Below are positions 108 through 7,153 of a DNA stretch of 8,103 nucleotides, piece after piece (position 1 is the stretch's first letter; each line of letters starts with the position of its first letter). The DNA lies in contig JAPULM010000651.1 in assembly GCA_027294925.1 (NCBI GenBank), positions 1 to 8,103 on the forward strand, given 5' to 3'. Under the pieces are notes generated by a model. That model was not told the DNA's origin. It ran no database searches and saw only the letters and a program-made list of their open reading frames with translations. The position numbers and the translations under genes are program-made. Origin of the DNA: a bacterium (GTDB lineage Bacteria; Tectomicrobia; Entotheonellia; Entotheonellales; Entotheonellaceae).

Positions 108-2519
108 TCACGGGCCGCCAACCTGGCCGGCTTGACCACGAGGCTCCGTCACCTGACGCATTTGCTCTGCCGTGTAGCCCAAGAGCCCCTCAAAAACGGC
201 CTCGTTGTCTGACCCCCGGTAAGCCGACCATCCGGCCACCCGGCCGGGCGTACGCGAGAGTATCGGTATCACGCCCTGCGTCACCACCTCGCCAAGTTTG
301 GGATCGGAGAGCCGAACGAGATTCTCACGATGCCACAGGTGGGGATCAGCGACGAGGTCAGCAACCGAGTTCACCCTGCTCGCCATCAGCCCCACGCGGC
401 GCAGCGCCCTCACTGCTTCTTCGGCCGGTAGCAGGGCGACGTACTGCGCCAGCTTATCGTGCGCCTGCGAGGCGCTGTCAAGCTGTCCGATGCCAAGCTG
501 CTCCAATCGCGGCAAGGCGTCCTGCCATGACTGGATGGAGACTGCAACAAATTGCTGGTCCGCTCCTTCCAGTGTTAGACAGATTGGATACAGCGGCCAC
601 TGCCCGCTTGCCCGCTCCCGCCGGATGCCGAGCGCACTGCGTACGGCGAGCAGGTCGCCGCTCATCCGCAAGACAGCCTCGTACATTGCCGTGTCAACCA
701 CTTGCCCTTCGCCGTCGCGCTCCCGGCGCAGTAGCGCCCCCAGCACGCCGAGCACGTTGAATAGCGCGGTCGTGTAATCGCCTGCCTGCACACCGTCCCG
801 TACCGGCGAGCGGTCTGGCCAGCCATTCAAGTAGGTGAGGCCGCCAAATGCAAGCCCGACCGGGTTGAAAGCAGGGCGACGGGAATACGGACCCGTTTGT
901 CCAAATCCTGATGCGCGTAGGAGGACAAGTTGCGGATTGACGCCAAGCAACTGGTCCGCACCGAGATCCCAGCGCTCCAGGGTCCCCGGGCGAAAATTCT
1001 CCACCACCACATCGCTCACCCGGACGAGGTCCAAGAACGCCTCCCTGCCGCGCGCCGTACGCACGTCAAGGGTAATGCTGCGCTTGTTGCGGTTGGTGAC
1101 GAGAAAGGACAGTGCACGGCCGGCAGACGACTGCTGAGGGCCGTCTAGCGGCAACTCGACCATGATCACGTCGGCTCCGAAATCCGCCAGCATGCTCGCC
1201 GCTGCCGGACCGGCCAGCCATTGCGACAGGTCGAGGACCCGGATACCGCTGAGGGCTGCCGTGGGTGCGCTGCCGCTCTCGCTTCGCACCACCGCACTCG
1301 GTGCTGCTGCTATCGCCTCGACTCTCGAACGGATGTATGTTGTATGCTCACCTAGCTTTGGTGCACACTCCGCGTCTCGCGTCGAGGTGCGTGAGAATCG
1401 GGGTACCGAGGCCGGGGCGACAAAAGCCTGTCCGGACTGCGACCGTAGTTGCACGTATGATCGACGCGCCTGAATGTGCGGGTTGGCGATAATCTCGTCA
1501 ACTGAGAGGACAGTGGTGCCAGCCACCCCCACCGCGCTGAAGCGTTCCTCGACCTCGGCAAGATCGTGCGCGGCGATCCAAGCGCCGACCAGGGAATCTG
1601 CCGCGGCGCGATTTTGTAAGCGTGCGGCAGGGGTGCTAAAGCGCGGGTCGTGGACGGCTTCGGGCGCCTCAATAGCCTGGCAGAGACGCGCGAATGGCTG
1701 ATCCCCCGCGCCGGAGAGCGCCATCAGCCCGCCGTCTCTGGTTGCGTATATATTGGCAGGAACCACAGTCGGAGACTCGGTGCCCGTGCGCGACGCCACC
1801 GCTCCATGCTGGTCGAAATTGATCACGATCGCTTCTTGCATACGAAGTAAGGTTTCGTAAAGCCCTAAATCGACAACCTGTCCGTGCCCGCTACGGCGTG
1901 CATGAATAATTGATATCAAGAGTCCATTAGCACCATGCACACCGCTCCAGCAGTCCGCAATTGGCAGGGTGACAGGGATGGGGGGGCGATCGGCAAAGCC
2001 GGTCAGAAATTGCGTCCCGGAGAAGGCTTGCGCGATGCGATCGTCGCCACCTTCTGCAGCCAGCGGGCCGCTCTGTCCGAATGGCGAGATGCGTAGGAGA
2101 CATAAGGGTGGATGACGCGCTTGCAGCACCTCTGGAGATAACCCCGCCGCCTCCATCACGCCCGGCCCCAGATCTTCTACGATCGCATCAGCAAGCGATA
2201 GGAGTCGTGCGAGCCAGGGCTCTTCCTGCAGCGCTTGCAGCTCAGCACAGACCGAATACTTACCGCGATTTTCCGACTGGAAGTAAAGCGAATCTTCGCC
2301 ATCGATGGCGGGGCCGAGGCGCCGCATGGGAGAACCCTCAGGCGGCTCGATCTTAATCACCGTTGCCCCCATGTCGGCTAGCAATCCCCCAGCAAATTCA
2401 CCCGCTAGCGTTGCGCTCAGCTCGATGACGACCACGCCATCGAGAACGCCACCCCGTCCCGTCTCCAGCAACCCGAGTGTGACGGAGGCGCTTTGGCCGT
2501 GCTGCTCTGCTGTCGACAT
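108..2519 (-). CDS. Tandem-fused class III (CaiB/BaiF) acyl-CoA transferase
   Basis: Family III CoA-transferases move CoA between carboxylic acids in the cytoplasm through an aspartyl-CoA thioester. The usual enzyme is about 400 residues and works as an interlocked dimer; this 803-residue protein contains two complete copies. Copy 1 starts with the signature strand around residues 28-62 (ending in IKIEPPEG) and has PIAD with Asp189 and HGQVVDLGLYE at 212-222. Copy 2 starts near 425-460 (RVLDLSQWLAGP), has QAGDY with Asp581 and EGQVVDTAMYE at 604-614. An Ala/Ser-rich linker near 404-424 joins them. Start chosen at ATG 2519 because AGGAGG lies 8 bases upstream; the frame is open to an ATG at 2582, which lacks such a site. 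Fused pairs are known, for example DddD (DMSP CoA-transferase/lyase, about 830 residues), but the substrate here is unknown. It lies 84 bases downstream of the amidohydrolase, probably in one operon. Family call firm; substrate open. Confidence 0.93.
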   Translation of the reverse strand: MSTAEQHGQSASVTLGLLETGRGGVLDGVVVIELSATLAGEFAGGLLADMGATVIKIEPPEGSPMRRLGPAIDGEDSLYFQSENRGKYSVCAELQALQEEPWLARLLSLADAIVEDLGPGVMEAAGLSPEVLQARHPPLCLLRISPFGQSGPLAAEGGDDRIAQAFSGTQFLTGFADRPPIPVTLPIADCWSGVHGANGLLISIIHARRSGHGQVVDLGLYETLLRMQEAIVINFDQHGAVASRTGTESPTVVPANIYATRDGGLMALSGAGDQPFARLCQAIEAPEAVHDPRFSTPAARLQNRAAADSLVGAWIAAHDLAEVEERFSAVGVAGTTVLSVDEIIANPHIQARRSYVQLRSQSGQAFVAPASVPRFSRTSTRDAECAPKLGEHTTYIRSRVEAIAAAPSAVVRSESGSAPTAALSGIRVLDLSQWLAGPAAASMLADFGADVIMVELPLDGPQQSSAGRALSFLVTNRNKRSITLDVRTARGREAFLDLVRVSDVVVENFRPGTLERWDLGADQLLGVNPQLVLLRASGFGQTGPYSRRPAFNPVGLAFGGLTYLNGWPDRSPVRDGVQAGDYTTALFNVLGVLGALLRRERDGEGQVVDTAMYEAVLRMSGDLLAVRSALGIRRERASGQWPLYPICLTLEGADQQFVAVSIQSWQDALPRLEQLGIGQLDSASQAHDKLAQYVALLPAEEAVRALRRVGLMASRVNSVADLVADPHLWHRENLVRLSDPKLGEVVTQGVIPILSRTPGRVAGWSAYRGSDNEAVFEGLLGYTAEQMRQVTEPRGQAGQVGGP

Positions 2520-2527
2520 GCGCTTAA

Positions 2528-2533
2528 CCTCCT
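2528..2533 (-). promoter_or_regulatory. Ribosome binding site deciding the CoA-transferase start
   Basis: The plus strand reads CCTCCT here, so the minus strand has a perfect AGGAGG with 8 bases before the ATG at 2519-2517. This favours that start over the two in-frame ATGs further upstream (2582 and 2570), neither of which has a comparable site. Confidence 0.8.
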
Positions 2534-2603
2534 CGATATGCGCCTCATCCCTACGCCCAGGAACTTGCATCAGGATAAGCACCCTGCCGCAAGTCAGAAC
2601 GCG

Positions 2604-3512
2604 TTACTCGATCTCGAAGACGCGGGCAGCGTTACCGAATAGCCATTTCTCTTTGACGCTATCCTTGAGCGGCAGATCCAGGTATTCCTGAATCAGCGTC
2701 TCATGTGGTTGGCCGATCAACGCCGTCGAAAGCCCCACCATCACCTTGTCCTGGATCAACGTGTTACCGAACTGAAGGAGCATTTCCCAACCGGAGCCCG
2801 GCTGGCCGAGATACTTCGGTCGATGGGCTGACGTATCGAGGTAAAGGTTGGGATGACGGCGCACCAGCGCCACCATATCATTCACCCACGGCCAGCCGCC
2901 CAGTCCGCCGATGATGGTTAGCTCAGGGAAGTCCATCGCGACCTGGTCGAGGTTTCTCGGATGACCCAGGTCATACGGCCGGTCGTTGGCGTAGTTCATG
3001 GTAGAATAGATGCGTACCGGGACGCCAAGCTCCGCCGCTTTGGCATACAACGGGTAGTAGCGCCGGTCACTGGCAGGGAGACAATCCACTAGCGCCGAGA
3101 CGCCGAGGGCATGGAATCCCTCCTCACGGATCAGGCGCTCCAGGTCACGCACGCCGGCCATGCCGCGCATCGGGCTGAGGCGCGCCAGACCCAGGAAACG
3201 ACCCGGGTAGGTTCGTAAGAGCTCGGTCGTTTCCTCATTCGAAGCACCGAAAGGAATGGCCTTTTCAATGCCGAGACCGGCAAGTTTCTTGACGTAGTCG
3301 TCCATCGGCATGGCTGCGGCACGATTGTCGCCATCGACCCGGGAGCGGAAGATACGTCCGTAATTCGCCATGCCATAGCCGGGGCGCTGTTGCACCGCAG
3401 AGCGAGGCGCAGTGGCGTCGGCGTTAAGGTCTGCCGCTTCTGCGCCACCTGACCCTGACGGATCGTTTGCGCGGCGCGGAAGAGAACATTCTAGGTCGAT
3501 GATACGCACCAT
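2604..3512 (-). CDS. Amidohydrolase-2-family (COG2159-like) protein lacking the usual metal ligands
   Basis: This 302-residue protein has the overall pattern of the amidohydrolase-2 group of metal-dependent TIM-barrel hydrolases and decarboxylases. It has an N-terminal IIDLE strand, the GLARLSP strand near 108-114, the GWPWVNDMVAL segment at 206-216, LYLDTSAHRPKYL at 223-235, and a C-terminal KWLFGNAARVFEI that matches the family's final helix. The positions that normally bind metal look changed: the opening HxH is Glu8/Ser10, the mid-barrel His is Tyr169 in RIYS, the His of the 'HxGG.PW' motif is missing in IIGGLGGWPW (200-209), and the late 'GSD' Asp is Ser262 in VGLST. It may therefore be a metal-free or non-enzymatic member, or use different chemistry. 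The start is well supported by AGGAGG 5 bases upstream. It is the first gene of the minus-strand string and precedes the fused CoA-transferase, suggesting a shared catabolic pathway of unknown substrate. Confidence 0.88.
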   Translation of the reverse strand: MVRIIDLECSLPRRANDPSGSGGAEAADLNADATAPRSAVQQRPGYGMANYGRIFRSRVDGDNRAAAMPMDDYVKKLAGLGIEKAIPFGASNEETTELLRTYPGRFLGLARLSPMRGMAGVRDLERLIREEGFHALGVSALVDCLPASDRRYYPLYAKAAELGVPVRIYSTMNYANDRPYDLGHPRNLDQVAMDFPELTIIGGLGGWPWVNDMVALVRRHPNLYLDTSAHRPKYLGQPGSGWEMLLQFGNTLIQDKVMVGLSTALIGQPHETLIQEYLDLPLKDSVKEKWLFGNAARVFEIE

Positions 3513-3517
3513 TTATA

Positions 3518-3523
3518 CCTCCT
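3518..3523 (-). promoter_or_regulatory. Ribosome binding site of the amidohydrolase gene
   Basis: The minus strand has AGGAGG followed by TATAA and then the ATG at 3512-3510. This is a near-ideal site and fixes the start of the amidohydrolase gene. Confidence 0.85.
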
Positions 3524-3616
3524 GAACGCACTAGATTAGTGACCTATCAAACAGATCTATACCTAAATAATAGGGACGTCACATTGCCTTAATGAGCCAA
3601 ATTGGTGATGACGATT

Positions 3617-3626
3617 GGCAACCCTA
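3617..3626 (+). repeat. Upstream copy of the P2 arm (direct repeat GGCAACCCTA)
   Basis: GGCAACCCTA here is identical to 3745-3754, which is the 3' arm of helix P2 in the structured element. Both copies could pair with the same strand (TAGGGTT at 3695-3701 plus GCC at 3705-3707), so the two pairings would be mutually exclusive. Confidence 0.55.
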
Positions 3627-3675
3627 CTACCGAAACATATCGAAGTCAATTGCATTTAGGAAACAGCTTTAGTAG

Positions 3676-3811
3676 TCGGTTTCACAATTAACGATAGGGT
3701 TTTTGCCCCTGCATAAGCCTGACTGCGGGTTGCAAACCCGCCTAGGCAACCCTATCCATAATTGCGCTGCGCAGCACTAAGCCTGAATAGACGATGCAGC
3801 GTTGAAACCGA
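3676..3811. ncRNA. Candidate structured element folding as a three-way junction (RNA or fold-back DNA)
   Basis: Three inverted repeats fit together without overlap. P1: TCGGTTTCA (3676-3684) with TGAAACCGA (3803-3811), 9 perfect pairs. P2 starts on the very next base: CAATTA (3685-3690) with TAATTG (3759-3764), a 2x2 mismatch, GATAGGGTT (3693-3701) with AACCCTATC (3748-3756), a 3-base T bulge, then GCC (3705-3707) with GGC (3745-3747). P2 is capped by a hairpin GCGGGTT (3725-3731)/AACCCGC (3735-3741) with loop GCA. P3 again abuts P2: CGCTGC (3765-3770) with GCAGCG (3796-3801). Only T3802 is unpaired at the junction. Such fully abutting helices are typical of structured RNAs such as riboswitches or small RNAs, but the repeats are strand-symmetric, so the strand is not known. 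On the minus strand it would sit in the amidohydrolase leader. I do not recognise it as a known family; a fold-back mobile element remnant is an alternative. Confidence 0.4.
3714..3786 (+). repeat. Pair of identical 9-base repeats TAAGCCTGA in the two loops of the structured element
   Basis: TAAGCCTGA occurs at 3714-3722, in the internal loop of helix P2, and again at 3778-3786, in the loop of P3. Both copies fall in parts of the model that are unpaired, which suggests equivalent binding sites or an internal duplication. Confidence 0.55.
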
Positions 3812-3871
3812 AATGGCTAACGAAAAAGTAAGGTTTTCAACCATACGGAGAAGTAAGGGGTAAAACTGGCC

Positions 3872-4333
3872 TCATACATCCCCTACCGGCCGGGCGCGGG
3901 CGATAGCGTCGCGAGCATCGCCCCATCCTTCGCAGATCGTACGTCCGGGTTGGCGGCGATAGAGATTGAGCAGCTGCTTGCAGCGGGCATAGAAGCGGAA
4001 AAAAAGCAGGATGAGCCAGCGCTCTAGAGGACGAAGCGGGTGGTCGCTACAGATCAGCTTGTCGTCGTAGATATTGTGGTCGGTGAACCCGATTACGCCA
4101 TGTACGTCCACCTCCACCCGTGTGCCCCGAGGCAGACGCGGTCCTAAGACCACGGCGTCCAACAGATCGCCATCCCCACCTATGAACGTGTCGACAGAGC
4201 CATAGTTAAACGGACAAGGAAAAGGTGAGACAAAGTCAATGCGCTGATCAGTGCCGCGTTTCACAAACGAGCCACGCGGGATCTCGATGCACACCGTGAG
4301 CCGCAGCGATTCTTGAGGTATGTATTGGCTCAC
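3872..4333 (-). CDS. Inorganic pyrophosphatase, small class I (soluble, Mg-dependent) type
   Basis: Hydrolyses pyrophosphate to phosphate in the cytoplasm, pulling biosynthetic reactions forward. Numbered from the GTG at 4333-4331 (153 residues), the protein shows the family pattern: IEIP with Glu17, FVKRG with Lys25, FNYG with Asn43-Tyr44, DGDLLD with Asp54/56/59, FTDHNIYDDK with Asp85, Asp90 and Lys92, a FFRFY helix with Tyr115, and EGW near 135-137. These match the metal and phosphate ligands Asp65/67/70, Asp97/102, Lys104 and Tyr141 of E. coli Ppa. The stretch between IEIP and NYG is about 8 residues shorter than in E. coli Ppa, Ala replaces the Lys after Tyr115, and Glu31 has no clear counterpart. 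The frame is open upstream to ATG codons at 4471 and 4504, but those lie inside the divergent helicase start and encode nothing family-like, so I chose the GTG; a TTG at 4390-4388 is another option. Product likely, exact start unsure. Confidence 0.8.
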   Translation of the reverse strand: MSQYIPQESLRLTVCIEIPRGSFVKRGTDQRIDFVSPFPCPFNYGSVDTFIGGDGDLLDAVVLGPRLPRGTRVEVDVHGVIGFTDHNIYDDKLICSDHPLRPLERWLILLFFRFYARCKQLLNLYRRQPGRTICEGWGDARDAIARARPVGDV

Positions 4334-4412
4334 CGAGGGCTCGCTTTCTGTCTTTTGCCGAACGGATTCAAGGCAGGGTAGGCCTTTCAAACGGAACAAC
4401 TTTATTTTAACA

Positions 4413-4418
4413 TATAAT
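4413..4418 (+). promoter_or_regulatory. Candidate -10 box for the SNF2-SWIM operon
   Basis: A perfect TATAAT lies in the short AT-rich divergent region between the pyrophosphatase and helicase genes. Transcription from it would begin near 4425, giving a leader of about 50 bases to the preferred ATG at 4475. No good -35 box is found at 16-18 bases; TTTCAA (4385-4390) is too far. The same AT-rich block carries TAAAAT on the minus strand (plus 4404-4409), a weak candidate for the divergent pyrophosphatase promoter. Confidence 0.4.
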
Positions 4419-4474
4419 GGCCGATTGAGAGTAGTATGGGGGAGAATATGGGGGAGAAGGGGTTGGGTCATTAT

Positions 4475-7153
4475 ATGGACATACGACTGACACCAACAGG
4501 GCATTTGCGCTGGGAAGCGTCCGCTGGGGAAGCTGACTCTGCCACCTTGGCATTCTTACAAAACGCCTTTCAGACCGATTGGCGCCAGGCCCTGTTTATC
4601 CTGGCAGCGCAAAAGGTGCATCCACAGGGGTCGCCAAGGGTGCGCTACTGGCAGCAACTGGCGGAACGCTATCTCACCCGCTTGTGCCACATTGCCGAGG
4701 ACGCGGAGACCTTTGAGGTCGAGGCGCCGTCACCCGCCGATCACGCCAACTGGGTATTGACGGCGCCACCGATGCAGGGCGGGGAATATCTCTCTGCAGA
4801 GCGCTTACAGCACATTTGGCAAAGCCTGGACGAGTGGGTGCACGAAACAGTCACAACAGCTGGCGGACTGGCCGAGTTTCTGCAAACACGCGCACCGAAA
4901 TGGCATCAAGTGGGGCGCGTTTGCTTCCATCTAGCCGAGAACAAGAACGATGCGGCGCGTCCGTTTGCCTTCATGGCAACCTATGCGTCCGGCTTCGGCG
5001 CGGCGGGACGGCTGAAGCATCTGCCGTTGCGCAAAGCCCTGGAACAGTACGCCGGGGCGAAGAATCGCGCCGCGCTGATCAAACTGCTTTCACCTGTGCA
5101 GCAGGCAGCCGAGACTTGTGATTGGGTGAAGACCTTGGTGGACGCCAGTGCCATCTATCAACCCATGGCCTGGTCGGCGAAGCGTGCCTATCAGTTCCTA
5201 CGCAGTGTGCCGCAACTTGAGGCAAGCGGCTTATCCGTGCGGCTTCCGGATTGGTGGCGCAAGCGTGCCCGGCCACAGGTGTCGGTGACCATCGGTAGTC
5301 AGACACCGTCGAAGTTTGGCCTCGATGCCATGCTGGACTTCAACGTCAGTATCGCCCTCGGCGATGATCCCCTGTCGCCCGACGAGTTGGAGGCGCTGTT
5401 GGCCGGAGAGGACGACTTGGTATTACTTAAGGGCCAATGGGTCGAAGTGGACCGTGACAAGCTGCAGCAGGCCATTGATCACTGGGAAACGCTGCAACAG
5501 CAAGCCAGAGACGGTGAGATTTCCTTCGTCGAGGGCATGCGCCTGCTTGCCGGTGCGTCAGCGGATCTGAAGCATGAGGAAGAGGCGGAAGACGAACGCC
5601 CCTGGGTGCATGTAGCGGCCGGCGAGGCCATGCGTGAGATGCTCTCGGGTCTGCGGCAACCGGGCGCCTTGGACGGGGTGGAGGTCGGAGGGGCCCTGCA
5701 GGGCACACTGCGGCCGTATCAACACGAGGGCCTGGCCTGGTTGCGTTTTCTGACCCAACTGGGCCTGGGCGCCTGCCTGGCCGACGACATGGGCCTGGGC
5801 AAAACCATTCAGGTCCTGGCGCTGTTGCTGTGTGACCGTCATCACCATGCTGACCGGCCGCGGACACCGTCGCTCCTGGTGATCCCAACCTCGCTGCTGG
5901 GCAACTGGCGTAGCGAAGCGACGCAGTTTGCGCCATCGCTGAAGCTGTGCTTTCTGCATCCGGCCGAAACCGATCGGCAAACCCTGACCGACATCGCGGC
6001 GGCGCCTGAGGAGCAGCTGGCCGATGCCGATCTGGTTATCACGACCTACGCCATGCTGACCCGGCAAACCTGGCTGGCGGACCTGAATTGGCGGCTGGTC
6101 ATTCTAGACGAAGCCCAAGCCATTAAGAACCCGTCGACACGTCAGAGTAAAGCGGCCAGAAAGCTCTCGGCCCATGCCCGCATCGCCATGACCGGTACGC
6201 CAGTGGAGAACCGCCTGGGCGATTTATGGTCGCTGTTCGATTTTCTCAACCCTGGTCTGCTCGGCTCGGTCACGGCGTTTCAGTCCTTCGTGAAAAGCCT
6301 GCAAGCGCGTCAGGACAACCCCTTCGCACCCCTGCGTCAGTTGGTCGGGCCATACATCCTACGCCGTCTGAAAACGGACCGCAGCATTATTGCCGACCTG
6401 CCGGAAAAGACCGAGACGTTCCGCTACTGTCACCTGACCCGGCCACAGGTCAAGCTCTACCAGCAAACCGTGCGGGCCATGCAACGCGACATGGCGTCTA
6501 CCGACGGCATTGCACGGCGGGGCGTGGTGCTACGCTCACTGCTGCGCCTAAAGCAAGTGTGCAACCACCCCAGCCAGCTTTCCGGCGACGGCGAGTACAA
6601 ACCCGCCGACAGTGGCAAATTCCTCCGTCTGGCAGAAATTTGCGAAGAACTCGCCGAACGACAGGAAAAAGTGTTACTCTTTACCCAATTCCGCGAAATC
6701 ATCGATCCGTTAGCCGAGCATCTAGCGACGGTTTTTGGACAGCCCGGCCTGGTGTTGCACGGTGCGACCCGAGTCAAGCAGCGCCGCGTCCTGGTGGATC
6801 AGTTCCAGAGCGATGACGGACCGCCGTTTTTCATCCTGTCCCTCAAAGCAGGTGGCACCGGCCTGAATTTAACGGCTGCATCACACGTCATTCACTTTGA
6901 TCGCTGGTGGAACCCGGCGGTTGAAAACCAGGCCACCGACCGTGCCTTTCGCATTGGGCAACAACGCAACGTGTTGGTCCACAAGTTTATGATCAGCGGC
7001 ACTGTTGAAGAACGCATTGATCTGATGATGGCGGAAAAACGACAGTTGGCGGACGATATTCTGGTCGGCGACAGCGAGGTAAACCTCACCGAGCTGTCCG
7101 ACGATGAACTGCTCGACCTGGTCCGTCTCGACGTCACCCGGGCGGCATTGTAA
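4475..7153 (+). CDS. SNF2-family DEAD/DEAH-type ATPase (helicase-like) with SNF2-associated N-terminal region
   Basis: SNF2 proteins use ATP to translocate on double-stranded DNA and remodel bound proteins; few unwind strands. Numbered from ATG 4475 (892 residues), the second half holds the full two-lobe motor: DDMGLGKT with Lys443 (motif I), LDEAQAIKNP with DEAQ at 545-548 (motif II), TGTP at 573-576 followed by the SNF2-typical ENRLGDLWSLFDFLNPG, ILRRLKTD, VLLFTQF near 733-739, LSLKAGGTGLNLT near 788 (motif V), and QATDRAFRIGQ with arginine fingers Arg823 and Arg826 (motif VI). Residues about 280-340 (LDFNVSIALGDDPLSPDELEALL, written here in part) match the SNF2-helicase-associated domain (PF12419 type). 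The start MDIRLTPTGHL fits the family best; in-frame ATGs at 4436 and 4448 add up to 13 Gly-rich residues and are possible. It ends with tandem TAA stops, 14 bases before the SWIM gene, so the two are almost certainly co-transcribed. Confidence 0.95.
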   Translation: MDIRLTPTGHLRWEASAGEADSATLAFLQNAFQTDWRQALFILAAQKVHPQGSPRVRYWQQLAERYLTRLCHIAEDAETFEVEAPSPADHANWVLTAPPMQGGEYLSAERLQHIWQSLDEWVHETVTTAGGLAEFLQTRAPKWHQVGRVCFHLAENKNDAARPFAFMATYASGFGAAGRLKHLPLRKALEQYAGAKNRAALIKLLSPVQQAAETCDWVKTLVDASAIYQPMAWSAKRAYQFLRSVPQLEASGLSVRLPDWWRKRARPQVSVTIGSQTPSKFGLDAMLDFNVSIALGDDPLSPDELEALLAGEDDLVLLKGQWVEVDRDKLQQAIDHWETLQQQARDGEISFVEGMRLLAGASADLKHEEEAEDERPWVHVAAGEAMREMLSGLRQPGALDGVEVGGALQGTLRPYQHEGLAWLRFLTQLGLGACLADDMGLGKTIQVLALLLCDRHHHADRPRTPSLLVIPTSLLGNWRSEATQFAPSLKLCFLHPAETDRQTLTDIAAAPEEQLADADLVITTYAMLTRQTWLADLNWRLVILDEAQAIKNPSTRQSKAARKLSAHARIAMTGTPVENRLGDLWSLFDFLNPGLLGSVTAFQSFVKSLQARQDNPFAPLRQLVGPYILRRLKTDRSIIADLPEKTETFRYCHLTRPQVKLYQQTVRAMQRDMASTDGIARRGVVLRSLLRLKQVCNHPSQLSGDGEYKPADSGKFLRLAEICEELAERQEKVLLFTQFREIIDPLAEHLATVFGQPGLVLHGATRVKQRRVLVDQFQSDDGPPFFILSLKAGGTGLNLTAASHVIHFDRWWNPAVENQATDRAFRIGQQRNVLVHKFMISGTVEERIDLMMAEKRQLADDILVGDSEVNLTELSDDELLDLVRLDVTRAAL

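Follow-up and report, generated by a model that had tools for sequence, protein, structure and literature searches.

MITEs such as Correia, ERIC and Chunjie are short, non-coding, intergenic sequences with terminal inverted repeats, able to form strong hairpins on both strands. According to a review, they favour intergenic regions, are typically AT-rich and give transcripts with stable stem-loops, and the direct repeats that flank them fade with time (PMC10969869). From the same account, RNase III cuts at the Correia terminal repeats, and ERIC affects transcripts at the 3' ends of genes (PMC10969869). REP and REPIN sequences, which occur together with Y1 (RAYT-type) transposases, are likewise palindromic hairpins. 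Many REPs have the tetranucleotide GTAG beside them. Among bacterial RNAs, including riboswitches, a three-way junction closed by a perfect stem is a familiar arrangement. We describe an element of 136 bases that has features of all of these. It is located in the gap between two genes of the window, i.e. the whole stretch of 8,103 nucleotides that was analysed. The features are given below.

108-2582, minus strand: CoA-transferase III ORF (ORF scan)
2604-3512, minus strand: amidohydrolase (ORF scan)
3513-3871: intergenic gap of 359 bases between amidohydrolase and pyrophosphatase
3676-3811: the whole element, an inverted repeat that is long and imperfect and carries a side hairpin; it folds on both strands and gives a three-way junction when single-stranded
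3676-3684: left-end terminal inverted repeat TCGGTTTCA, forming the 5' arm of P1, 9 of 9 bases paired with 3803-3811
3685-3701: P2 5' arm, of 6 bp, two unpaired bases and 9 bp, all pairs Watson-Crick
3685-3690/3759-3764: P2 outer helix, 6 bp, followed by a 2x2 internal loop
3693-3701/3748-3756: P2 inner helix, 9 bp, beyond which the inner end is ambiguous
3714-3722, plus strand: first copy of TAAGCCTGA, in the P2 head, a 9-base direct repeat with 3778-3786
3725-3741: cap hairpin GCGGGTT-GCA-AACCCGC, 7 of 7 pairs
3748-3764: P2 3' arm
3765-3802: P3, a weak 38-base hairpin in the 3' arm, read as an insertion into a longer hairpin
3778-3786, plus strand: second copy of TAAGCCTGA, in the P3 loop region
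3803-3811: right-end terminal inverted repeat TGAAACCGA, forming the 3' arm of P1
3872 to about 4348, minus strand: inorganic pyrophosphatase ORF
4436-7153, plus strand: SNF2 helicase
7168 onward, plus strand: SWIM zinc-finger ORF

The original prediction had placed the element in non-coding DNA, and this was confirmed: 3676-3811 lies in the gap between the minus-strand pyrophosphatase (3872-4348) and amidohydrolase (2604-3512) genes. It is located 164 bases ahead of the start of the amidohydrolase and has the same orientation. The GC content of the element (0.515) is higher than that of its intergenic flanks (0.393 and 0.417) and lower than that of both neighbouring genes (0.58-0.60). Neither a promoter-like site nor an intrinsic terminator was reported in the scan of 3480-4450, and the stem is followed by a T/U tract on neither strand, the flanks being AAATGGC and, on the minus strand, CTACTAAAGC. 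No tRNA or tmRNA was found, and the scan of five window proteins revealed no transposase. At the beginning of the SNF2 ORF, further along the window, there is a perfect 12-base tandem duplication (TATGGGGGAGAA, 4435-4458), which provides two possible ATG starts.

When checked base by base, most of the helices were as the original prediction had drawn them. All nine pairs of P1 (3676-3684/3803-3811) are Watson-Crick and its coordinates are exact, and the cap (3725-3731/3735-3741) and P3 (3765-3770/3796-3801) have 7 of 7 and 6 of 6 pairs. At the junction, 3684 is contiguous with 3685 and 3764 with 3765, and base 3802 is the sole unpaired one. For P2 the region was right, but it is not one continuous helix, since a 2x2 internal loop interrupts it. 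Its inner end also has to be redrawn: GGC at 3745-3747, earlier paired with 3705-3707, pairs with GCC at 3717-3719 in the minimum-energy fold. The 41 core pairs include no G-T (G-U) pair, and the full minimum-energy fold of each strand has 2 among 50. RNAs are expected to contain a fraction of G-U pairs, and their scarcity, although a weak argument, weakly fits a DNA palindrome.

P1 and P2 together form a single long inverted repeat with a terminal repeat beginning TCGGTTTCACAATTA, consisting of 15 bp, the 2x2 loop, 9 bp and a capped head, the 3' arm of which is split by the 38 bases of P3. When 3765-3802 are dropped, the 3' strands of P1 and P2 are joined into a perfect 15-bp stem, followed by the 2x2 loop and 9 further pairs. 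Of all the single deletions tried (up to 69 bases), the removal of the 38 bases of P3 gave the longest continuous terminal stem (15 bp), a length which some deletion also reached in 19 of 200 shuffled interiors. The 98-base core without P3 stood far outside the shuffles on both strands (z −9.84 and −8.11 against mononucleotide shuffles, 0 of 300 in each case), whereas P3 alone was within chance (z −0.85 and −1.1, with 57 and 39 of 300 shuffles equally stable), and the tight junction thus needs no RNA design. If a small hairpin inserts into one arm of a long palindrome, a compact three-way junction can result, and the tightness of the junction alone is therefore poor evidence for a designed RNA. 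The simplest history would be that of a long palindrome which acquired a 38-base hairpin in one arm. Since TAAGCCTGA is common to P3 and the P2 head, P3 may derive from a partial duplication. Taken as a whole, the anatomy of the element does not favour a designed three-way-junction RNA.

The fold itself is strong. The minimum energies of the plus and minus strands were −54.4 and −57.3 kcal/mol (z −5.0 and −4.35), equalled by none of 200 dinucleotide shuffles on either strand, and mononucleotide shuffles were as good in 0 of 300 cases for the plus and 1 of 300 for the minus strand. Shuffled sequence of the same composition, named in advance as a possible refutation, thus does not fold equally well. 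Among 80 windows of 136 bases taken at steps of 100, the best summed two-strand z was −3.74, compared to −5.98 and −4.42 for the element. The raw energy of the element is not the lowest in the window because GC-richer coding stretches fold lower. In 60 shuffled gaps scanned in 136-base windows the best energy was −44.6 kcal/mol, compared to −54.4 kcal/mol for the element. The wider stretch 3640-3860 on the plus strand gave z −2.83, with 1 of 200 shuffles as good, a weakening that fits a signal limited to the element itself.

The claim that abutting stems of this kind are unlikely to arise by chance also held. A junction whose closing stem has 9 bp or more, with two stems of 6 bp or more abutting it and no more than one unpaired base, occurred once in the window and in none of 2000 mononucleotide shuffles of 3513-3871, a figure that indicates rarity and is not a formal probability, since the limits were chosen after the element had been seen. 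With three relaxed settings the junction was found in 0 of 300 shuffles each. The number of perfect 9-base arm pairs in the gap, two, was matched in 35 of 500 dinucleotide shuffles. An arrangement that arose by chance, or a decayed remnant without a present role, is consistent with this last count and with the ordinary stability of P3, but it does not account for the whole fold or for the junction, and we regard it as highly improbable; the MITE/REP-type reading in any case includes a mobile-repeat remnant that has no function.

Compared to the known classes of palindromic DNA, the element has the terminal inverted repeats (9 perfect bp, or 15 without P3) and the small non-coding body (136 bases) of a MITE. 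It differs from Correia, ERIC and Chunjie, as described in the review (PMC10969869), in having a side hairpin on one arm and a higher GC content than its flanks, and its sequence was unrelated to them in the searches run. It also differs from them in that no second copy, no target-site duplication and, by blastn against plasmids and phages, no matching insertion sequence was found. No target-site duplication was seen directly beside the element, and moving either end by as many as 4 bases did not reveal one. As direct repeats wane with time (same review), their lack weighs against a recent insertion and not against such an origin.

With REPs the element shares the GTAG just 5' of its left end (3672-3675). 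This GTAG is present on the left only: the right end has no counterpart, in that CTAC is missing and the right flank is AATGGCTAAC, and dispersed copies were not found in the searches. An integron attC site was also considered. The ends of attC sites are RYYYAAC and GTTRRRY boxes, which by eye are not present in TCGGTTTCA and TGAAACCGA. The element resembles three-stem-junction RNAs in its closed junction, but differs from them in matching no family and in the near-symmetrical folding of its two strands. An intrinsic terminator does not fit either, as there is no T run after the stem. We therefore place the element near MITEs and REPs provisionally, by appearance, as a candidate member only.

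A precedent for such an element at this position was found in Rokubacteria. In locus L003, a 94-base palindrome (947-1040) with 20-bp arms GGGGTCAGGTCTCACAATCC ends 14 bases upstream of the amidohydrolase. In its own genome, G213, a BLAST search with this 94-base repeat returned 71 match rows, a figure that counts both arms and both strands as well as the query itself; five other genomes gave no matches. The sole Y1_Tnp gene of G213 (C210:11997-12317) is located between two of the matches (C210:11860-11911 and 12823-12847), and the repeat looks like a REP family with its transposase. Like the element of the window it is a palindromic hairpin upstream of the amidohydrolase; it differs in sequence and length (94 compared to 136 bases) and in having a transposase, none being recognised in the window. 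The L003 repeat thus indicates that lineage-restricted palindromic repeats occupy the slot upstream of the amidohydrolase, and a single window of 8 kb would not show such lineage-specific repeats. It is unrelated in sequence to the element and shows only that such repeats can occur.

The searches for copies and relatives were run without a positive control and in sets not known to contain the source lineage, and their empty answers show little. In Rfam no match was above threshold, the best in 3513-3871 reaching 12.9 bits (E 8.4) against a threshold of 35. BLASTN gave no match in plasmids, phages or E. coli genomes. With regard to identity to a known transposon end, this covers the plasmid and phage records. 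In the phylum of L079, blastn against 95 genomes and the covariance model R1 against 94 genomes each gave no matches. In 299 genomes of the phylum of L027 the model gave two matches at E ≤ 0.1, both of which were judged to be chance: one (L103) is inside a 240-aa ORF, and the other (L104) is a GC-rich alignment of 64 bases that skips most of P2.

The exact-end pattern with inner CAATTA-type bases was found neither in the genome contigs nor in the viral contigs. Without the inner bases it was found in 1 of 398 genomes, and likewise in one genome with the read-backwards control; it also occurred in 14 viral stretches, and the inner-arm pattern in two. These 16 viral stretches, all of which were folded, and L086 gave no match to R1. 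The most similar of them (L094:7215-7358, z −5.08) is a gap in viral DNA that contains several GTGAAACCGT-type units and has the ends TCGGTTTCAC and GTGAAACCGA. It precedes a primase-like ORF, named by eye, and is perhaps a replication origin or operator. It was considered convergent. Neither a relative nor a second copy of the element emerged from Rfam, from the plasmids, phages and E. coli genomes, or from the exact-pattern scans and sampled genomes, and repetition, the defining feature of MITEs and REPs, is thus only putative here.

The original prediction had also suggested a leader of the amidohydrolase/CoA-transferase operon. Short metagenome contigs carry the closest amidohydrolase proteins (83-95 % identical); the Rokubacteria relatives have about 66-72 % protein identity. 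For the SNF2 protein, relatives with 76-82 % identity were listed, many of them on multi-megabase contigs, and its identity was at most 53 % in 18 genomes and at most 57 % in 143 genomes sampled from Rokubacteria and gammaproteobacteria. The amidohydrolase pair and the SNF2 gene thus point to different relatives. The pairing of the two genes was borne out: amidohydrolase and CoA-transferase are adjacent in four Rokubacteria loci (L001, L002, L011 and L079), with 66-67 % identity for the CoA-transferase. The pyrophosphatase was beside the amidohydrolase in none of the loci compared.

Retention upstream of the gene in relatives, characteristic of a cis-regulatory RNA, was not seen: the element is absent upstream of the amidohydrolase in all 13 Rokubacteria loci compared. 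The 80 loci retained included 14 from Rokubacteria, and for 13 of these the 500 bases upstream of the gene were aligned locally with the element; L079 was omitted as it starts within the gene. Raised alignment scores were obtained only for L002 (z 4.45 to 4.89) and L048 (3.36), which counts against a mobile element; the L002 match is apparently, by eye, a GCGCAGCGC stretch in permease-like coding DNA. R1 gave nothing over 85 loci beyond one match with E 2.3. In the 400-base folding scan upstream, z was −3.39 for L003, where the fold is the 94-base repeat, −3.58 for L008, where the fold is a set of separate GC-rich hairpins, and −2.09 or weaker for the others. In L011 the gene starts 31 bases past the preceding ORF, a gap that leaves no room for a leader. 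The idea of a leader is weakened by the lack of an R1 match in these loci and by L011. The relatives are distant (about 66-72 % identity), however, and a leader could have been lost in them.

That the element is an RNA, either a small RNA or the 5' leader of the minus-strand amidohydrolase/CoA-transferase transcript with a three-way junction, is in our view a tentative possibility. The fold is well beyond the shuffles on the minus strand, too, and the position and orientation relative to the amidohydrolase suit a leader. The repeats could be taken in the same sense. GGCAACCCTA, a 10-base direct repeat, is found at 3745-3754 in the P2 arm and again at 3617-3626, between the element and the gene and 50 bases outside the element, and since TAAGCCTGA is also repeated, in the P2 head and the P3 loop region, alternative pairing is conceivable. 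However, the competing pairing is predicted to be negligible, with a summed pair probability of 3.5e-6 compared to 7.6 for the element's own, and when the gap was shuffled by mononucleotides, 111 of 2000 sequences had a repeated 10-mer. The lack of a promoter-like site, of an Rfam match near threshold and of a homologue, the similar folding of both strands and the core pairs free of G-U also argue against an RNA, and the undescribed structured RNA of the original prediction gained no positive support. A more elaborate version appears doubtful to us: an undescribed RNA class whose three-way junction is perfectly stacked and which would display UAAGCCUGA twice (P2 head and P3 loop) as a putative double binding site for a partner, while the second GGCAACCCUA, located downstream, would act as a competing strand that couples it to the amidohydrolase/CoA-transferase operon.

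It is unlikely that the long hairpin, of whatever origin, is kept at the pyrophosphatase-amidohydrolase boundary as a site of mRNA processing or stability, i.e. as an RNase III-type substrate. As both flanking genes are on the minus strand, a read-through transcript would contain the element, and the review reports RNase III cleavage of Correia and 3'-end effects of ERIC (PMC10969869). Co-transcription of the two genes is only presumed, though, the two are not neighbours in the loci compared, and a U tract is missing after the stem on both strands. Of the three explanations originally proposed (an undescribed RNA, an operon leader and a fold-back DNA element), the last is the best supported, by the anatomy of the element and by the palindromic repeat in the corresponding slot of L003. 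We give about an even chance to its being a non-autonomous palindromic intergenic repeat of the broad MITE/REP kind, or the remnant of one.

If the element is such a repeat, it would have been a hairpin of about 98 bases, with the terminal inverted repeat starting TCGGTTTCACAATTA, and P3 would be a later 38-base insertion or duplication in the right arm. The element may have been copied as DNA into the gap between the pyrophosphatase and amidohydrolase genes by an enzyme encoded elsewhere, which would recognise the ends of the element or its single-stranded hairpin. A read-through transcript would form a stable hairpin, which may incidentally affect the mRNA processing of the two flanking minus-strand genes. 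As a dispersed palindromic element it would be one more sequence in a class that is already crowded, and a sign that repeats are active in a lineage sampled poorly so far. If it should instead be an RNA, a leader on the paired amidohydrolase/CoA-transferase operon would be worth pursuing.
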